A stretch of 5,308 nt of DNA from Vulcanimicrobiia bacterium (GTDB taxonomy: Bacteria > Eremiobacterota > Eremiobacteria > Baltobacterales > Baltobacteraceae). The position numbers were made by a program, and so were the translations under genes. The stretch spans positions 1 through 5,308 of the forward strand of contig JAMXLG010000013.1 in assembly GCA_024281135.1 (NCBI GenBank), given 5' to 3'. Shown piece after piece: positions 1 through 5,308 of the stretch (positions are counted from its first letter, which is position 1; each line of letters begins with the position of its first letter). Under the pieces are notes generated by a model, which ran no database searches, was not told the origin of the DNA, and saw only the letters and a list, made by a program, of their open reading frames with translations.

Positions 1-438
1 GATGCGTGGGACGAAGCGCGCCGTAAGGCCGGCGGCATCTTTATTGCCGCCATCGGCTTTCAGTTCATCGTGTGGGTTGCCGCATACGCTGGAAGCTTGA
101 TACCGGTGCCGTTTTTGCAGATCGCACTGCAGTTGATCGCATACTTCTTCTTGATTCTCACGATACCGGCAGCTTCGATCGGCGGTCTTCAAGGTGGCCT
201 TGCGCTTTCGGGATCGATTCGCGCCGTACGCGCGAACCCGGTGCCGTGCCTCGTTCTGGCGATCGTGTTTGTCGCGCTGTGGATCGGCGTGCCGTTGGCG
301 ATCGAAGTGTTCGTCGGAGCCCGTTTCGGATTTCTTGGATACGAACTCATGATGGCGATTGCCCGCGCCCTCGTGCTCGCGTACATGGCCTTCCCGTTCG
401 CGACCACGTACGACGAAATCGCGTTTAGGTTCTACTAG
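1..438 (+). CDS. Polytopic membrane protein, C-terminal part (5' end outside window)
   Basis: The frame is open from the first base to the TAG at 436-438, so this is the last 145 residues of a longer protein. The internal GTG at 70 is not needed as a start, because the frame continues upstream through DAWDEARRKAGG. Four hydrophobic segments are visible at about residues 12-34, 36-58, 81-105 and 115-134. Short charged or Gly-rich loops separate them (SGSIRAVRAN between the second and third). The last residues are polar, TTYDEIAFRFY. The DAWDEARRK stretch before the first visible helix and the repeated helix pairs recall membrane proteins such as the glycerophosphodiester phosphodiesterase membrane domain, but I cannot name the family. 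The gene converges on holB, and the two stop regions overlap by 14 bp (425-438). Location in the inner membrane is inferred from the helices. Confidence 0.8.
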   Translation, partial: DAWDEARRKAGGIFIAAIGFQFIVWVAAYAGSLIPVPFLQIALQLIAYFFLILTIPAASIGGLQGGLALSGSIRAVRANPVPCLVLAIVFVALWIGVPLAIEVFVGARFGFLGYELMMAIARALVLAYMAFPFATTYDEIAFRFY

Positions 439-1447
439 AAGCCTTTCCAGTCAACGCCATTCGAACGAGCTCACTCACCATGTTTGGGCTGACGTTCGTG
501 CGAGCGATGCGCTGCGCGTCGTCGATTTTTGCGAGCATCGCAATGGCTTCGGCAGGCTCCAGACGCGGTAACTTGTCGACTTCGCGTTCGTAGTCCACGG
601 CAACAAGGGGCGTTTTCCCTCCGGCAACGGAACGTGCCGTCCAATCGCGGACGAACGATTTGATGACTTCCAAACCCTCATCCAGCGTTTCGCGCGTGGC
701 CCACGTCTCTTCAGGCGTCGCGCCGCCGACCACCGAGAAGAACCACTCCGCGACTTGCGAGCGCAGCGATTCTTCATCATCGCCGAGTGCGGCGATCGCT
801 CGCGTAACGCTTCCCTGCCCGAGCGACGCTCCGAGCTGTGCATGCTCCTCGTCATAGTCCATCGCAAGCAAAATCTGACGCACTTGCGCCTGCGAGAGCG
901 ATGGAAAGCGAAGCTCGATCAAGCGCGAGCGAATCGTCGTAAGAAGGCGGCCGGGCGTCGATGTCGTCAAGAGCAGCACGACACCTCGAGGAGGTTCTTC
1001 AAAGAATTTCAGCAGTGCATTGGCAGCATGATGCGTGGCAAAATCGATGTCACCAAGCATTAGTACGCGCATTCCACCACTGTAAGACTGCATCGAGAGT
1101 TGACGGACTAAATCGCGCGCCGTCAATTCCTCGCTCTCGTAGAATCCCATCGCTGCGTCGCTGTCGCCGATCTTCAGCACACCGACATGTTCGAGAAAAT
1201 CCGGATGACGCGCGGCCTCGACGCTTGCGAACAAACGGCACGACGCGCACGTACCGTCATAACCCAGCACGTGCGTCTTCGGATATTCGCATAGCAGCGA
1301 TTGCGCAAGGCGCCGCGCAAACGTCTTTTTCCCCACACCTTGTGGTCCGGTAAAGAGATATGCATGCGCGATAGAATCGCGCGTGAGCTGCCCAAAGTAC
1401 GCTTTGGGGCCGTCGGCGCCAACGACGTCAAAACGGAGTTCGCTCAC
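425..1447 (-). CDS. holB: DNA polymerase III delta' subunit (clamp-loader ATPase-fold protein)
   Basis: A 340-residue protein, within the usual size range for delta'. It is the clamp-loader subunit that, with DnaX (tau/gamma) and delta, loads the beta clamp onto primed DNA. Visible features are HAYLFTGPQGVGKKTFA at residues 28-44, a P-loop in which the usual Ser/Thr after Lys40 is Lys41, as expected for a subunit that need not hydrolyse ATP. A zinc-module remnant follows (Cys53, Cys67, Cys70), then HPD at 81-83, the hallmark AANALLKFFEEPP, and TIRSRLIELRF, which matches the SRC region with Cys replaced by Leu but the Arg kept. The zinc site is unusual: the position expected to hold the second Cys is Asp64. 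Translation starts at a GTG (1445-1447) that overlaps the tmk stop as GTGA. No good Shine-Dalgarno precedes it, so it is probably translated by coupling to tmk. The tmk-holB order is common in bacteria, supporting the call. Confidence 0.95.
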   Translation of the reverse strand: MSELRFDVVGADGPKAYFGQLTRDSIAHAYLFTGPQGVGKKTFARRLAQSLLCEYPKTHVLGYDGTCASCRLFASVEAARHPDFLEHVGVLKIGDSDAAMGFYESEELTARDLVRQLSMQSYSGGMRVLMLGDIDFATHHAANALLKFFEEPPRGVVLLLTTSTPGRLLTTIRSRLIELRFPSLSQAQVRQILLAMDYDEEHAQLGASLGQGSVTRAIAALGDDEESLRSQVAEWFFSVVGGATPEETWATRETLDEGLEVIKSFVRDWTARSVAGGKTPLVAVDYEREVDKLPRLEPAEAIAMLAKIDDAQRIARTNVSPNMVSELVRMALTGKASSRT

Positions 1448-2052
1448 GATGCGTAGTTCAAAATCTCGTCGAGTGCTGCAGCAACCAACTCTTCAGGTGG
1501 ACGCGTCCCATCGAGCACGCGATAGCGCCCGCCATTGCGCGCAAGCGTGAGGAAACCGTCGCGCACGCGCACGTGGAATGCGTCATCCTCGGACTCCATG
1601 CGGTCGAGCCGTCCATGCCGCGCACGAACGCGCTCGCGCGAAATGGCAACGGGAATATCGAGAACGATCGTGAGATCCGGGGTCAAACCATCGGTGGCAA
1701 TGTTGCAAAGGTTGCGTAAAAGACCGAGGTCCACTCCGCGGCCGTACCCCTGATATGCGAGCGTCGAGTCGATAAAACGATCGCACAACACGGTCGCGCC
1801 TCGGGAGAGTGCCGGTGCGATCAGCTCCACGACGTGTTGCACCCGAGCGGCATTGATCAAAAACGCCTCGGTCAGCGCCGCCGGCTTGAGTTCCAGTTTG
1901 AGGAACGTCTCCCGCACCGCGTCGCCGACCGCGGTACCCCCAGGCTCCCGCGTAACGATGATTTCCCCGCCCCGGTCGCGTAATCGTTCCGACAGGCCGG
2001 CAAGCAGTGTACTCTTGCCGCAGCCTTCAATACCTTCGACGGTGATAAACAT
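1444..2052 (-). CDS. tmk: Thymidylate kinase (dTMP kinase)
   Basis: A 202-residue protein of normal Tmk length. It phosphorylates dTMP to dTDP with ATP in the cytoplasm, the step shared by de novo and salvage dTTP synthesis. Motifs in order are the P-loop GIEGCGKST (residues 7-15), TREPGG (34-39), CDRFIDS (90-96) with the dTMP-binding DR[FY] signature, YQGYGRG (100-106), and GLTPDLTIVLDI leading to the lid region RARHGRLDRME. The absence of Arg in the P-loop together with a basic lid is the bacterial E. coli-like (type II) arrangement. The ATG at 2050-2052 places the P-loop at the usual distance from the N-terminus, although no strong Shine-Dalgarno sequence precedes it. It is the first gene of a two-gene unit with holB (4-bp GTGA overlap) and diverges from the PilZ gene. 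Confidence 0.97.
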   Translation of the reverse strand: MFITVEGIEGCGKSTLLAGLSERLRDRGGEIIVTREPGGTAVGDAVRETFLKLELKPAALTEAFLINAARVQHVVELIAPALSRGATVLCDRFIDSTLAYQGYGRGVDLGLLRNLCNIATDGLTPDLTIVLDIPVAISRERVRARHGRLDRMESEDDAFHVRVRDGFLTLARNGGRYRVLDGTRPPEELVAAALDEILNYAS

Positions 2053-2084
2053 CGCCGTTCGAATGTTCGACGGAGCGGCTTTGC
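2053..2084. promoter_or_regulatory. 32-bp divergent spacer between tmk and the PilZ gene
   Basis: Only 32 bp separate the two start codons, too little for two ordinary non-overlapping promoters. At least one promoter must therefore lie inside the opposite gene. The spacer holds two direct copies of GTTCGA 8 bp apart (2057-2062 and 2065-2070) and the Shine-Dalgarno of the PilZ gene. I see no convincing -35/-10 pair on either strand. A weak TTGCCG at 2015-2020 with GATAAA at 2044-2049 has a 23-bp spacer and I do not call it a promoter. Confidence 0.35.
2072..2075 (+). promoter_or_regulatory. Ribosome binding site of the PilZ gene
   Basis: GGAG sits 9 nt upstream of the ATG at 2085. It supports that start over the out-of-frame ATG at 2063 and the internal in-frame ATG at 2103. 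Confidence 0.6.
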
Positions 2085-2774
2085 ATGTCTTTCACCGGCT
2101 CGATGTTCGGGGACATCATTGAATGGTTCTTGGGTCGCGCGGGCGATCGTAGACAGTACAAGCGCCGGGCGGGCGCATTCCACGTTTGGTATCAGCCGAA
2201 TCCCAACGACGCCAGCCAACTCAAACAAGGCGTGGGACTCGAAGTCTCTTCCAACGGCCTGATGTTCATCATGCAGGGTCCGATCGGCTCGCAAGAATTC
2301 AACTTGGTCGTTCGGCTGGGCGAAACGAACATTCCGTTGCGCATCCGTCAAATACGCAGCGACCAAATTCAGCATCAAGGAAAAACGTGGAACCGCTACA
2401 TGGGCGAATTCCAAGGTGTCGCAGCGGATCATTGGGATGCAATCGTCCGTTACGTCAACGACGAACCCGAAGTCGATCGCCGCAAGATGCAAAATCAAGA
2501 AGTCAGCGATAAGACTGACGACGCGTACCGTCTCCTTCCAATGGCGCTCCAAAAGAAGATCATGGATCTTCTCGTCTCGCAAGGAAAGCTCGAAGCGCCC
2601 AAAGACGGTCAGACGCCCTTGCTCAAACTCTTCTACGGCGGACTCGTAAAGCGTCCCGGACAAAAACCCGCACATCGTTTCAACGTGCACAGCCGCATCA
2701 AAAAGGGCGACGAGATGATGGCGTACGACACACGCTTTCTCGTTAGCGAAGACGGGCAGGTTACAGTCCTTTAG
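2085..2774 (+). CDS. PilZ-domain protein with an extra C-terminal domain of unknown function
   Basis: A 229-residue soluble protein. Residues about 20-125 read as a PilZ domain, the small beta-barrel that binds cyclic di-GMP. The N-terminal arginine motif RQYKR (R23-x3-R27, in a run of basic residues) is followed by the second motif as EVSSNG (E53, S55, G58), matching [D/N]xSxxG with Glu in place of Asp/Asn, and then by beta-rich sequence ending in MGEF near residue 108. Whether c-di-GMP binding survives the D/N-to-E change is open. The C-terminal half (about 143-229) has a predicted helical start (LLPMALQKKIMDLLVSQGK) and then a basic segment; I recognise no family. There is no signal peptide or membrane segment. 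The start is supported by GGAG at 2072. Its stop overlaps the stop of the convergent HD gene by 4 bp. A role in c-di-GMP signalling (motility, pili, surface life) is inference from the family. Confidence 0.8.
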   Translation: MSFTGSMFGDIIEWFLGRAGDRRQYKRRAGAFHVWYQPNPNDASQLKQGVGLEVSSNGLMFIMQGPIGSQEFNLVVRLGETNIPLRIRQIRSDQIQHQGKTWNRYMGEFQGVAADHWDAIVRYVNDEPEVDRRKMQNQEVSDKTDDAYRLLPMALQKKIMDLLVSQGKLEAPKDGQTPLLKLFYGGLVKRPGQKPAHRFNVHSRIKKGDEMMAYDTRFLVSEDGQVTVL

Positions 2775-3436
2775 GGCAGCTTCCCATCGAACGTTTCGCG
2801 CTGCCAGGCGTCGAGGAACGACTGCAGTTCCGCGACGCGTTCCGCGCCCATTTTTTGCGCTGTTTTCGTAATCAGCTTCGGCGGGATGTCCTTTATGAAC
2901 GTTCGCAGCGTTGCGATCGCTTTCGCGGCGCTTTCCGCATTTGAACCGGTGAGCGAGATCATGCGTGTTGCACCGATTGCACCGAGAAAATCGAGCGAAT
3001 CGGCATCGTGTAGGACGATTGCTTCCGGAACGGTCCCCGGATTCGAATAGTACATGTGACCGCGCATCGCTGCAGCGACGTGCGGGAACTTTTCCATAGG
3101 GAATCCCGCCGCGCGCAGAATTGATTCACTCTTTTGCGCAGCGACGTCGCCGTGTTCACCTTTTCCTTGATACGGCGGAAACGCAGCCATATCGTGAAGC
3201 ATGCACGCGGCAAAGAGGACGTCAGTGTCGATCGTCAACCCATCGCCCTTCGCGAGTTCCATCGCGAGATCGTAGTTGCGCTCGGCGTGCTGCCATCCCC
3301 ATGCGGGATGTTTGAATCCGGGGTGAACGAGATTGTACACCGTCACTTTCCACGGCGCGTCCAGCGGAATGCCGGTAACAGTCGTCGCAGGCGCCGGCGA
3401 TGCGATCGCAAGCAACAGCGCAAGCAGCGCGATCAT
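2771..3436 (-). CDS. Exported HD-domain phosphohydrolase (YedJ-like)
   Basis: I start this gene at the ATG 3434-3436. That gives 221 residues beginning with a hydrophobic signal-like segment, MIALLALLLAIASPAPA, with an AxA-type cleavage site (APA, then TT) near residue 17. The frame is open further up to 3556, but that part runs through the lactamase gene and looks non-native (Cys/Arg/Ser rich). The segment lacks the usual positive charge after Met, so export is likely but not certain. HD metal ligands are present: GWQH (H50), LHD (H81, D82) and HDADSLD (D144/D146). There are further His at GEH (H95) and RGH (H127). The stretch DADSLDFLGAIGATR closely matches the signature of YedJ-like predicted metal-dependent phosphohydrolases, which are usually cytoplasmic. 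The substrate is unknown. The gene overlaps the lactamase stop as ATGA and has GAAGG 7 nt before its start, so the two are probably co-translated. Confidence 0.85.
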   Translation of the reverse strand: MIALLALLLAIASPAPATTVTGIPLDAPWKVTVYNLVHPGFKHPAWGWQHAERNYDLAMELAKGDGLTIDTDVLFAACMLHDMAAFPPYQGKGEHGDVAAQKSESILRAAGFPMEKFPHVAAAMRGHMYYSNPGTVPEAIVLHDADSLDFLGAIGATRMISLTGSNAESAAKAIATLRTFIKDIPPKLITKTAQKMGAERVAELQSFLDAWQRETFDGKLP

Positions 3437-4206
3437 TTTCCGACCTTCGCCAGCGATAGCGTATGACTGAGAGAATCGCCACCGATCGTTCCGTGACCGG
3501 GGATCACATGGCGAGCATGATAGCGATCCATCACGCGTCCGACACTCGCAGGCCACGCCGGCACGTCGGCGTCCCCGAGATTGCCGAGATCGTTCGCCGT
3601 TACCGACTTAATGAAGCAACCGCCGAAAAGCACGTCATCGCCGGGTACGTACGCAACGATATTGTCGACCGTGTGCCCGGCGCCGGGATAGAACACCTCG
3701 ATCGGACCGAAACGTTGTGGCGCCTTCTCCGCGTTGTGCAACGGCTTAGGAGGTGCGTGGCCGCTGTCGATCGCAAGCCCGATAGTAAGTGGGTTTCCAA
3801 ACGACGGAACGCCGTGCCTCGTGAGTTCCGGTATACCGCCGAGGCGATCGTCATGAAAATGCGTAACGAGCGCCTTCGTAATTTTTGGGCGACCGGCCGC
3901 GTGCCAAGCGCGAAGGATCGTTTGCGTTTGCTCGTTCGTCCATCCGGTATCAACGAGAGTCGCCTCGCCGCCGTCGACGACAATCATGCCATTTGCCGGG
4001 TAGTAGATTTTGCCGGCGAGTAGGTAGGTCGTCGTGTGAATCCATACGCGCGGCGTCAGCCTCGCAAACCAGACGGTATCGCTAACACGCTCCATGTTAG
4101 GGACAGCCAATTCAAGTTCTTGAGGATCGCCGGTTCGCGCGGAAGCAATGGCCGGCGTCAGCGCAAATGCGGCGAGACCGCCGAGAAACGAGCATCGCGT
4201 ACACAT
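3433..4206 (-). CDS. Subclass B1 metallo-beta-lactamase, exported
   Basis: A 257-residue protein from the ATG at 4206. All B1 zinc ligands are present: HFHDD gives H116, H118 and D120, GAGHTVDN gives H178 (standard BBL H196), GGCFIKS gives C197 (BBL C221), and IPGHG gives H238 (BBL H263). The B1 Lys224 and Asn233 equivalents are K200 in GGCFIK and N209 in DLGN. The segments HDDRLGGI, FYPGAGHTVDN and GGCFIKSVTANDLGN closely resemble Bacillus BcII, so this reads as a true penem/carbapenem hydrolase rather than a generic MBL-fold protein; activity is inferred. The N-terminus has a signal peptide (SFLGGLAAFALTPAIASA). It is preceded by TRCSFL, a Tat-like motif with the second Arg changed to Cys. 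An in-frame GTG at 4264-4266, overlapping the ATPase stop as GTGA, would add 20 residues encoded by a repeat and a terminator hairpin, so I prefer 4206. No Shine-Dalgarno is visible at either start. The next gene, an HD protein, is coupled by ATGA. Confidence 0.93.
   Translation of the reverse strand: MCTRCSFLGGLAAFALTPAIASARTGDPQELELAVPNMERVSDTVWFARLTPRVWIHTTTYLLAGKIYYPANGMIVVDGGEATLVDTGWTNEQTQTILRAWHAAGRPKITKALVTHFHDDRLGGIPELTRHGVPSFGNPLTIGLAIDSGHAPPKPLHNAEKAPQRFGPIEVFYPGAGHTVDNIVAYVPGDDVLFGGCFIKSVTANDLGNLGDADVPAWPASVGRVMDRYHARHVIPGHGTIGGDSLSHTLSLAKVGK
3444..3448 (-). promoter_or_regulatory. Ribosome binding site of the HD-domain gene
   Basis: On the minus strand GAAGG lies 7 nt before the ATG at 3434-3436, inside the end of the lactamase gene. 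With the ATGA stop/start overlap, it fixes the start at 3436 instead of the upstream in-frame ATG at 3556. Confidence 0.6.
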
Positions 4207-4238
4207 AAAAACGGGGTTCGCAGCAACTGCGAACCCCG
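4207..4238 (-). terminator. Rho-independent terminator after the R3H ATPase gene
   Basis: On the minus strand a perfect 12-bp, GC-rich stem (arms 4212-4223 and 4227-4238, loop 4224-4226) is followed directly by TTTTT (4211-4207). It starts 24 bp after the ATPase stop codon. The T-run continues without a gap into the ATG of the lactamase gene at 4206. On the plus strand no T-run follows the stem, so the signal is one-directional. Confidence 0.85.
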
Positions 4239-4242
4239 CCTT

Positions 4243-4265
4243 TGACCCTTCGACAAGCTCAGTCA
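4243..4265. repeat. Short palindromic dispersed-type motif (CTTCGACAAGCTCAG family)
   Basis: The core CCCTTCGACAAGCTCAG (4246-4262) is flanked by TGAC (4243-4246) and GTCA (4262-4265), forming an imperfect palindrome. Cores of this kind, often written CTGAGCTTGTCGAAGGG, are recalled as frequent intergenic repeats in several bacterial genomes. Only one copy is in this window, so its repeated nature cannot be shown here. The right edge includes the TGA stop of the ATPase gene (4263-4265). Confidence 0.5.
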
Positions 4266-5308
4266 CTCAGGAACTTTGAATATCCGCACTCGCCTGTTCG
4301 GTTCGAGACCCGTGCTGCGTGATTGCAGACGGTACTTCTCGGCAAGCTGATGCTGCATGCGCCGGACGTACGAGGTCTGCGGTGAGAGCTCGATGCCCTG
4401 GTTCGTGAGCAGCACCTGGTACACGGCTTCTTCCGCTTCCCGAAGTGCGATTTCTTCATTATCGATCGAGCCCAAGTTGAACACATCGCGCAGGGCTGTT
4501 TGAATCTGCGTGGTCGTGTTCGTTTTGATCGCATAGATCGGCACATTGTCCGACGCGATCTGCTTGAGTTTCGGCTGGCCCTTGCGTTCGAGGGTCTTGA
4601 GCGTCAGCACGACATCAGCGTCGTCCCAGTTCCGCGCGATTGTCGCGTTGACGCGCAGGTTGTGCACGGCTCGCTCGATCTTGTTGCGCGAAACGCCGTA
4701 CGGGAAGATCATCAGCGGCTTCTCGTGGGCTTCGTCATGCTGATCGTGATGATCGTACGCTTCCGCCAGCTGCGGCATGGATTCGGTATCCGCTTCTTGC
4801 ACGATTGCAACGTCGCCGCTGGCCGTGCGCTGCCGAATCTCCGGTTGCGGTTGGTATCCGCGCAAGAGCGCGTCGACTACTTCCGCAACGTTCTTGTGAA
4901 TCGCGAGCCGGTCGCGATCTTGAATCTCGACTAAAAGGTCGAATGTCGGCGGAGCTTTGCGTTCGAGCACCGTCTTGCGCGTACCGCGACGGCGCGCTTC
5001 CTCGTCGGAAAGCGTCACCGCGCTGATGCCGCCCACGAGATCCGAGAGCGTCGGATTCATCAAAAGGTTCTCGAGTGTTTGGCCGTGCGCCGTGCCGATC
5101 AGAGCAACACCACGTTCCGCAATCGTGCGCGCCGCCGACGCTTCGGCTTCAGTGCCGATTTCGTCGATGACGATCACTTCGGGCATGTGGTTCTCGACCG
5201 CTTCGATCATCACGCCGTGTTGCATGGCCGGATCGGGAACCTGCATACGTCGCGCAAGTCCGATGCCGGGATGCGGAATATCGCTGTCGCCCGCGATTTC
5301 GTTCGAAG
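4263..5308 (-). CDS. SpoIIIAA/Ycf45-like AAA ATPase with C-terminal R3H domain (N-terminus outside window)
   Basis: The frame runs from the TGA at 4263-4265 to the window edge with no stop. The Met at 5246 is internal, because the upstream codons read NEIAGDSDIPHPGIGLARRM, the conserved block of this family. About 347 residues are visible; the Walker A motif lies outside. Visible features are Walker B VIVIDEIG (Asp-Glu codons 5160-5165), LIGTAHGQTLENLL, the conserved NPTLSDLVGGI and EEARRRGTRKTVLERKAPPTFD, then a variable linker rich in His and Asp (4719-4756). Next comes a second conserved domain, MIFPYGVSRNKIERAV to NTTTQIQTALRDVF, and a terminal R3H domain with RRMQH (RxxxH, 4350-4364) ending EPNRRVRIFKV. 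R3H domains bind single-stranded nucleic acid; the ATPase is related to type II/IV secretion-like and SpoIIIAA proteins. Its cellular role is not established. Relatives occur in cyanobacteria, plastids and Deinococcus. It is followed by a strong terminator. Confidence 0.92.
   Translation of the reverse strand, partial: SNEIAGDSDIPHPGIGLARRMQVPDPAMQHGVMIEAVENHMPEVIVIDEIGTEAEASAARTIAERGVALIGTAHGQTLENLLMNPTLSDLVGGISAVTLSDEEARRRGTRKTVLERKAPPTFDLLVEIQDRDRLAIHKNVAEVVDALLRGYQPQPEIRQRTASGDVAIVQEADTESMPQLAEAYDHHDQHDEAHEKPLMIFPYGVSRNKIERAVHNLRVNATIARNWDDADVVLTLKTLERKGQPKLKQIASDNVPIYAIKTNTTTQIQTALRDVFNLGSIDNEEIALREAEEAVYQVLLTNQGIELSPQTSYVRRMQHQLAEKYRLQSRSTGLEPNRRVRIFKVPE

Follow-up and report, generated by a model that had tools for sequence, protein, structure and literature searches.

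The window analysed here is a 5,308-nucleotide stretch of Vulcanimicrobiia bacterium DNA (contig JAMXLG010000013.1, positions 1 to 5,308). It carries a gene for a subclass B1 metallo-beta-lactamase (MBL), which lies, as the original prediction from the sequence had it, between an R3H ATPase gene upstream and an HD protein gene downstream. The open reading frame (ORF) runs from an ATG at 4206 to a TGA at 3433-3435, uninterrupted by stops. The gene and its features are:

3433..4206, minus strand: subclass B1 metallo-beta-lactamase gene (MBL, P0001), 257 aa; ORF, profile and predicted fold
4138..4206, minus strand: putative signal peptide, codons 1-23, MCTRCSFLGGLAAFALTPAIASA, predicted from sequence
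3847..3861, minus strand: zinc ligands H116, H118 and D120 (HFHDD)
3673..3675, minus strand: zinc ligand H178
3616..3618, minus strand: zinc ligand C197
3607..3609, minus strand: substrate-binding Lys, K200
3580..3582, minus strand: substrate-binding Asn, N209
3493..3495, minus strand: zinc ligand H238

All six ligands carry the numbers first given to them, the predicted Lys and Asn are K200 and N209, and R121 is present beside them. In the standard numbering of class B beta-lactamases (BBL), we take H178, C197, K200, N209 and H238 to be H196, C221, K224, N233 and H263.

Profile, ligands, fold and tree all identify MBL as a true B1 enzyme. Its B1 profile match (E 3.4e-66) excludes chance and bears out the claim of an intact B1 gene, and it scores 223 bits with the NCBIfam subclass B1 model NF033088 against a curated cut-off of 200. 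The predicted fold is the B1 fold and agrees, in the structure model, with VIM, NDM and CcrA-type enzymes; residues 1-11 of the model have a predicted local distance difference test (pLDDT) score below 50. In trees of B1 sequences, with one B3 protein as the sole outgroup tried, MBL groups with B1 enzymes, in line with the original assignment. Subclass B2, where Asn replaces His at position 116, is ruled out by H116. In subclass B3, His replaces the Cys ligand; MBL has C197, and its BLAST match to L115, the sole B3 protein compared, has E 1.2. By analogy with known enzymes, MBL is probably active on beta-lactams and very probably breaks down antibiotics of the penicillin and carbapenem types. 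The enzyme class is already known, and MBL adds a member to it, not a new kind of enzyme.

The protein search found 256 relatives at E 1e-20 or better, of which the best 120 are listed. Among the matches listed, 82 of 119 are at least 50% identical to MBL, the window's own entry excluded. In an alignment of 54 of these (MBL included), five of the six zinc ligands never vary and the sixth, H116, is present in 53 sequences; K200 is found in 53 and N209 in 39, with Tyr at the latter position in 14. In a tree of 83 rows, which leaves out L130, the B3 row, L021 (the same as IMP-1) and L129 (the genome place of L012), MBL belongs to a 24-row clade (100/98) together with copies from two genomes of its phylum, G423 and G424. 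A second tree recovers this clade, and a second B1 copy of G423 (48% identity) falls outside it. VIM-2 lies on the MBL side of a 95/87 split in the 83-row tree, and the Bacillus, Bacteroidota and IMP/DIM/KHM enzymes lie across it. NDM-1 stands beside VIM-2 in one tree and on the opposite side in the 83-row tree, so we make no statement on its position. The B3 outgroup had an end branch of 8.1 and yielded no usable root; the MBL clade therefore cannot be called basal, and a value of the gene for the origin of the class remains a suggestion.

MBL fits none of the known B1 families scored. VIM-1, VIM-2 and VIM-31 are about 41-43% identical to it, the VIM family profile NF012100 gives 167.9 bits against a cut-off of 500, and VIM-2 is without the Lys of the C-x-x-K block, which MBL has. 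A block close to BcII had also been proposed. This stood for the block itself, since GGCFIKSVTANDLGN resembles the Bacillus enzymes (GGCFIKSLEAKDLGN in L004) and GGCFIKS...LGN is common to both, but over the full length of the protein VIM-2 gives the better score, 161 bits compared with 147 bits for the Bacillus atrophaeus enzyme. BcII-type Bacillus enzymes are likewise encoded by an old chromosomal gene, but they lie on the opposite side of the 83-row tree, and their profile NF033095 gives 141.1 bits against a cut-off of 500. The top sub-family scores come from the models that NCBIfam names PYX (NF047975), COR and MYX, at 204.5, 182.2 and 177.6 bits, far under the respective cut-offs of 473, 450 and 520. 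The hosts of these three are presumably Myxococcota; B1 enzymes from Myxococcota-group genomes (9 of 235 match at E 1e-25) are at most 43% identical to MBL. Metagenomic B1 proteins at least 50% identical fall in the MBL clade or the nearest clades, the four nearest among the matches listed being 82-85% identical. Several lie on contigs of 0.5-2.8 Mb, which makes their genes chromosomal. These relatives are predictions whose source label is metallo-beta-lactamase, hydrolase or none.

Around MBL, the window has the following features:

4263..5306, minus strand: R3H / SpoIIIAA-like ATPase, upstream of MBL, cut by the window end; profile matches
4207..4238, minus strand: perfect 12-bp hairpin with a 3-base loop, then T5, ending directly at the MBL start codon; folding
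2771..3436, minus strand: HD-domain protein, downstream of MBL, its ATG overlapping the MBL stop (ATGA); Pfam
2085-2774, plus strand: conserved 229-aa ORF, 71-89% identical in near relatives

Since the two genes overlap at stop and start, MBL and HD are probably co-translated. The hairpin is strong and terminator-like, has a folding z of -4.26, with none of 200 shuffles as good, and is absent from the output of a consensus terminator scan. P0002 (84%) is the closest of the listed relatives whose N-terminus is longer, and in it MLRTPFF precedes MCTRC. LRTP is also a one-frame reading of the 3' arm of the window hairpin, so the P0002 gene probably follows the same hairpin. The base composition of MBL (GC content 0.594; GC at third codon positions, GC3, 0.646) is within the range of six neighbours (0.544-0.612 and 0.635-0.724), as first described. 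The proposed setting on the chromosome among housekeeping genes is likewise supported. The ORF at 2085-2774 has no match in Pfam or NCBIfam. Directly after the R3H stop codon, at 4246-4262, stands CCCTTCGACAAGCTCAG, which we take to be a sequence that high-GC bacteria often carry in repeat elements.

Relatives of the neighbouring proteins assign the window to Vulcanimicrobiota (Eremiobacterota). R3H matches at E 1e-60 occur in 133 of 149 genomes of the phylum, with identity up to 98% in G416 and 80% in G208. The source names of HD and R3H relatives include Candidatus Aquilonibacter, Cybelea, Tumulicola, Rubrimentiphilum and Tyrphobacter, all Vulcanimicrobiota of the family Vulcanimicrobiaceae in the NCBI taxonomy, and further Baltobacteraceae, Vulcanimicrobiaceae and Eremiobacteraeota; one listed R3H row is Dormibacteraeota. 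Copies of MBL at least 50% identical were found only in Vulcanimicrobiota among the genomes examined, some of which are incomplete. Among relatives of genome G001, a set that extends to other phyla and has G208 among its members, 4 of 286 match MBL at E 1e-15 (best 42%); among relatives of G002, 9 of 41 match at E 0.001, two of them strongly, at 44%. The best Myxococcota-group match is at 43%. G208 has two photosynthetic reaction-centre genes, as does G423, whose two B1 genes lie on different contigs (L093 6208-6864 and L092 4384-5184).

We think it likely that MBL is a functional, exported di-zinc B1 enzyme, chromosomally encoded between R3H and HD, in an old clade of its own that was lost in relatives such as G416. 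By analogy with VIM, BcII and NDM, H116, H118 and H178 would bind Zn1, and D120, C197 and H238 would bind Zn2; a bridging hydroxide would open the beta-lactam ring, with K200 and N209 positioning the substrate. Export to the periplasm is predicted from what is established for B1 enzymes, and export and catalysis, like loss of the gene rather than gain, are what we infer. In the available part of its description, Vulcanimicrobium stains Gram-negative (PMC9758169). In the part of a published screen considered here, 18 of the 21 new B1 genes that were tested gave imipenem hydrolysis (PMC5637372).

The strongest alternative concerns history and not function: the same enzyme may have entered the R3H-HD site from another Vulcanimicrobiota lineage after the G416 split. 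We consider this rather unlikely, though not negligibly so. G416 is the nearest relative found (R3H 98%, HD 91%) and has the window's gene order of R3H, HD, unassigned ORF, tmk and holB at 82-98% identity. A like hairpin stands directly before its HD ATG (L077), MBL is missing there, and the genome has no MBL match at E 1e-15. No obvious ribosome-binding stretch is seen ahead of the MBL start or the G416 HD start. In the next five genomes (93-95% R3H), the stretch examined contains no HD or MBL gene, and no MBL match occurs genome-wide at E 1e-15, which also speaks for gain. However, HD matches occur in 36 of the 149 phylum genomes, and in two of the five (G427 and G425) HD lies on another contig. 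HD is thus not always found here, and the interval that follows R3H differs between genomes. The perfect ATGA overlap would also come about more easily through long co-residence, and GC and codon use of MBL are like those of its neighbours.

Contig sizes bear on the same question. Three pairs of MBL and HD relatives are recorded on contigs of equal size: P0004/P0125 (2268), P0006/P0123 (1735) and P0008/P0146 (6333), where the MBL proteins are 82-83% and 60% identical to the window's. Over the whole lists 0.57 such matches are expected; the expectation is 0.015 for the near subset (7 MBL by 19 HD rows), where controls reach one at most. Size coincidences between MBL and R3H and between HD and R3H (one each) are at chance level, reached in 91 and 134 of 400 shifts. 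A further match, P0007/P0171 at 936 bases, was taken as chance and set aside as too short a contig for both genes. In the HD tree (midpoint root), G416, the window, P0123 and P0125 form one clade (97/92), internally unresolved, and P0146 lies in a neighbouring group, so that one of the three coincidences is outside the G416-window group. If shared sizes mean shared contigs, the MBL-HD pair predates the G416 split and MBL was lost in G416. On the size matches and the HD tree, we therefore set aside the empty G416 site as evidence against residence and ascribe it to loss, though not conclusively. An old pair with loss in G416 is preferred to gain with moderate confidence.

Several points weigh against long residence of a working enzyme. 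MBL matches at E 1e-15 are patchy, in 3 of the 149 phylum genomes: G424 (58%), G423 (59% and 48%) and G464 (37%). G416 has an intact site with R3H and HD 55 nucleotides apart and no MBL between them. Among 400 shifted controls, four also reach three size matches over the whole lists; the near subset was chosen post hoc, after the matches were known; and equal contig size means linkage and does not imply adjacency. Two long HD-bearing contigs, P0122 (2.07 Mb) and P0129 (2.50 Mb), have no same-sized MBL contig among the matches listed, which makes loss frequent or gain repeated. By eye, no Shine-Dalgarno-like stretch precedes the MBL ATG, where the hairpin lies instead. In the same part of the published screen, 3 of 21 predicted B1 enzymes showed no activity (PMC5637372). 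The clade's age in its lineage, as first proposed, is thus favoured, short of demonstrated, by the equal-sized MBL/HD contigs and the place of G416 HD in the window's clade. Residence holds for part of the lineage; only 2 of the 149 genomes carry the 24-row clade, and the nearest relative is without the gene.

The inactive enzymes of that screen would also suit a B1-fold hydrolase with a non-beta-lactam physiological substrate, whose action on beta-lactams is weak or incidental. A look for beta-lactam data on the phylum gave nothing, and the words 'antibiotic', 'lactam', 'penicillin' and 'ampicillin' are not in the available part of the Vulcanimicrobium paper (PMC9758169). We regard this as improbable, given the six zinc ligands with K200, N209 and R121, and a predicted fold that agrees with VIM, NDM and CcrA-type enzymes. 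That MBL was acquired as a mobile resistance gene of a recent clinical type is hardly credible: all 2708 matching plasmid records are below 60% identity (VIM-1 42.7%, the nearest mobile enzymes being the VIM group), the seven window proteins scanned match no transposase, integrase or other mobile-element model, and composition is neighbour-like. Recent mobile transfer is thereby refuted within the collections searched, and the reported lack of mobile-element marks is upheld. Five pattern matches in viral contigs include no relative.

A resident B1 enzyme of this phylum would widen the known host range. In the part of a survey considered here, the chromosomal hosts of groups B1-1 and B1-2, which hold most mobile enzymes, are Proteobacteria, those of B1-3 and B1-4 are Bacteroidetes and Firmicutes, and Vulcanimicrobiota are not among the hosts in its Results section (PMC5637372). 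No B1 enzyme of Vulcanimicrobiota was found in the available parts of the open-access literature. A B1 clade settled there would extend the natural hosts to a phylum of cold, poor soils, and gain and loss can be tested on two near relatives of which one carries MBL at this site and the other does not. A bolder proposal, which we hold doubtful, is a long-resident Vulcanimicrobiota clade outside the five published groups and on the VIM side, with an MBL-HD pair behind an R3H terminator, an MCTRC leader replacing the twin-arginine signal, and environmental beta-lactam pressure keeping the gene in some species as others lose it. If true, the VIM lineage would have a neighbouring reservoir outside the Proteobacteria.

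The leader MCTRC[AS]F is conserved in the near clade, and MCxRxxF occurs in 57 of 121 listed proteins. In its place, 22 other listed proteins have a twin-arginine-like RRxF; judging from these sequences, the second Arg seems to be replaced by Cys in the near clade. Long imperfect inverted repeats with GTGTCATCCTGA...GAAGGATC, absent at the corresponding place in the window, lie in intergenic DNA of G416 (L077 4600-4800) and G417 (L081 about 7410-7520) and look like a repetitive extragenic palindromic (REP)-type element.
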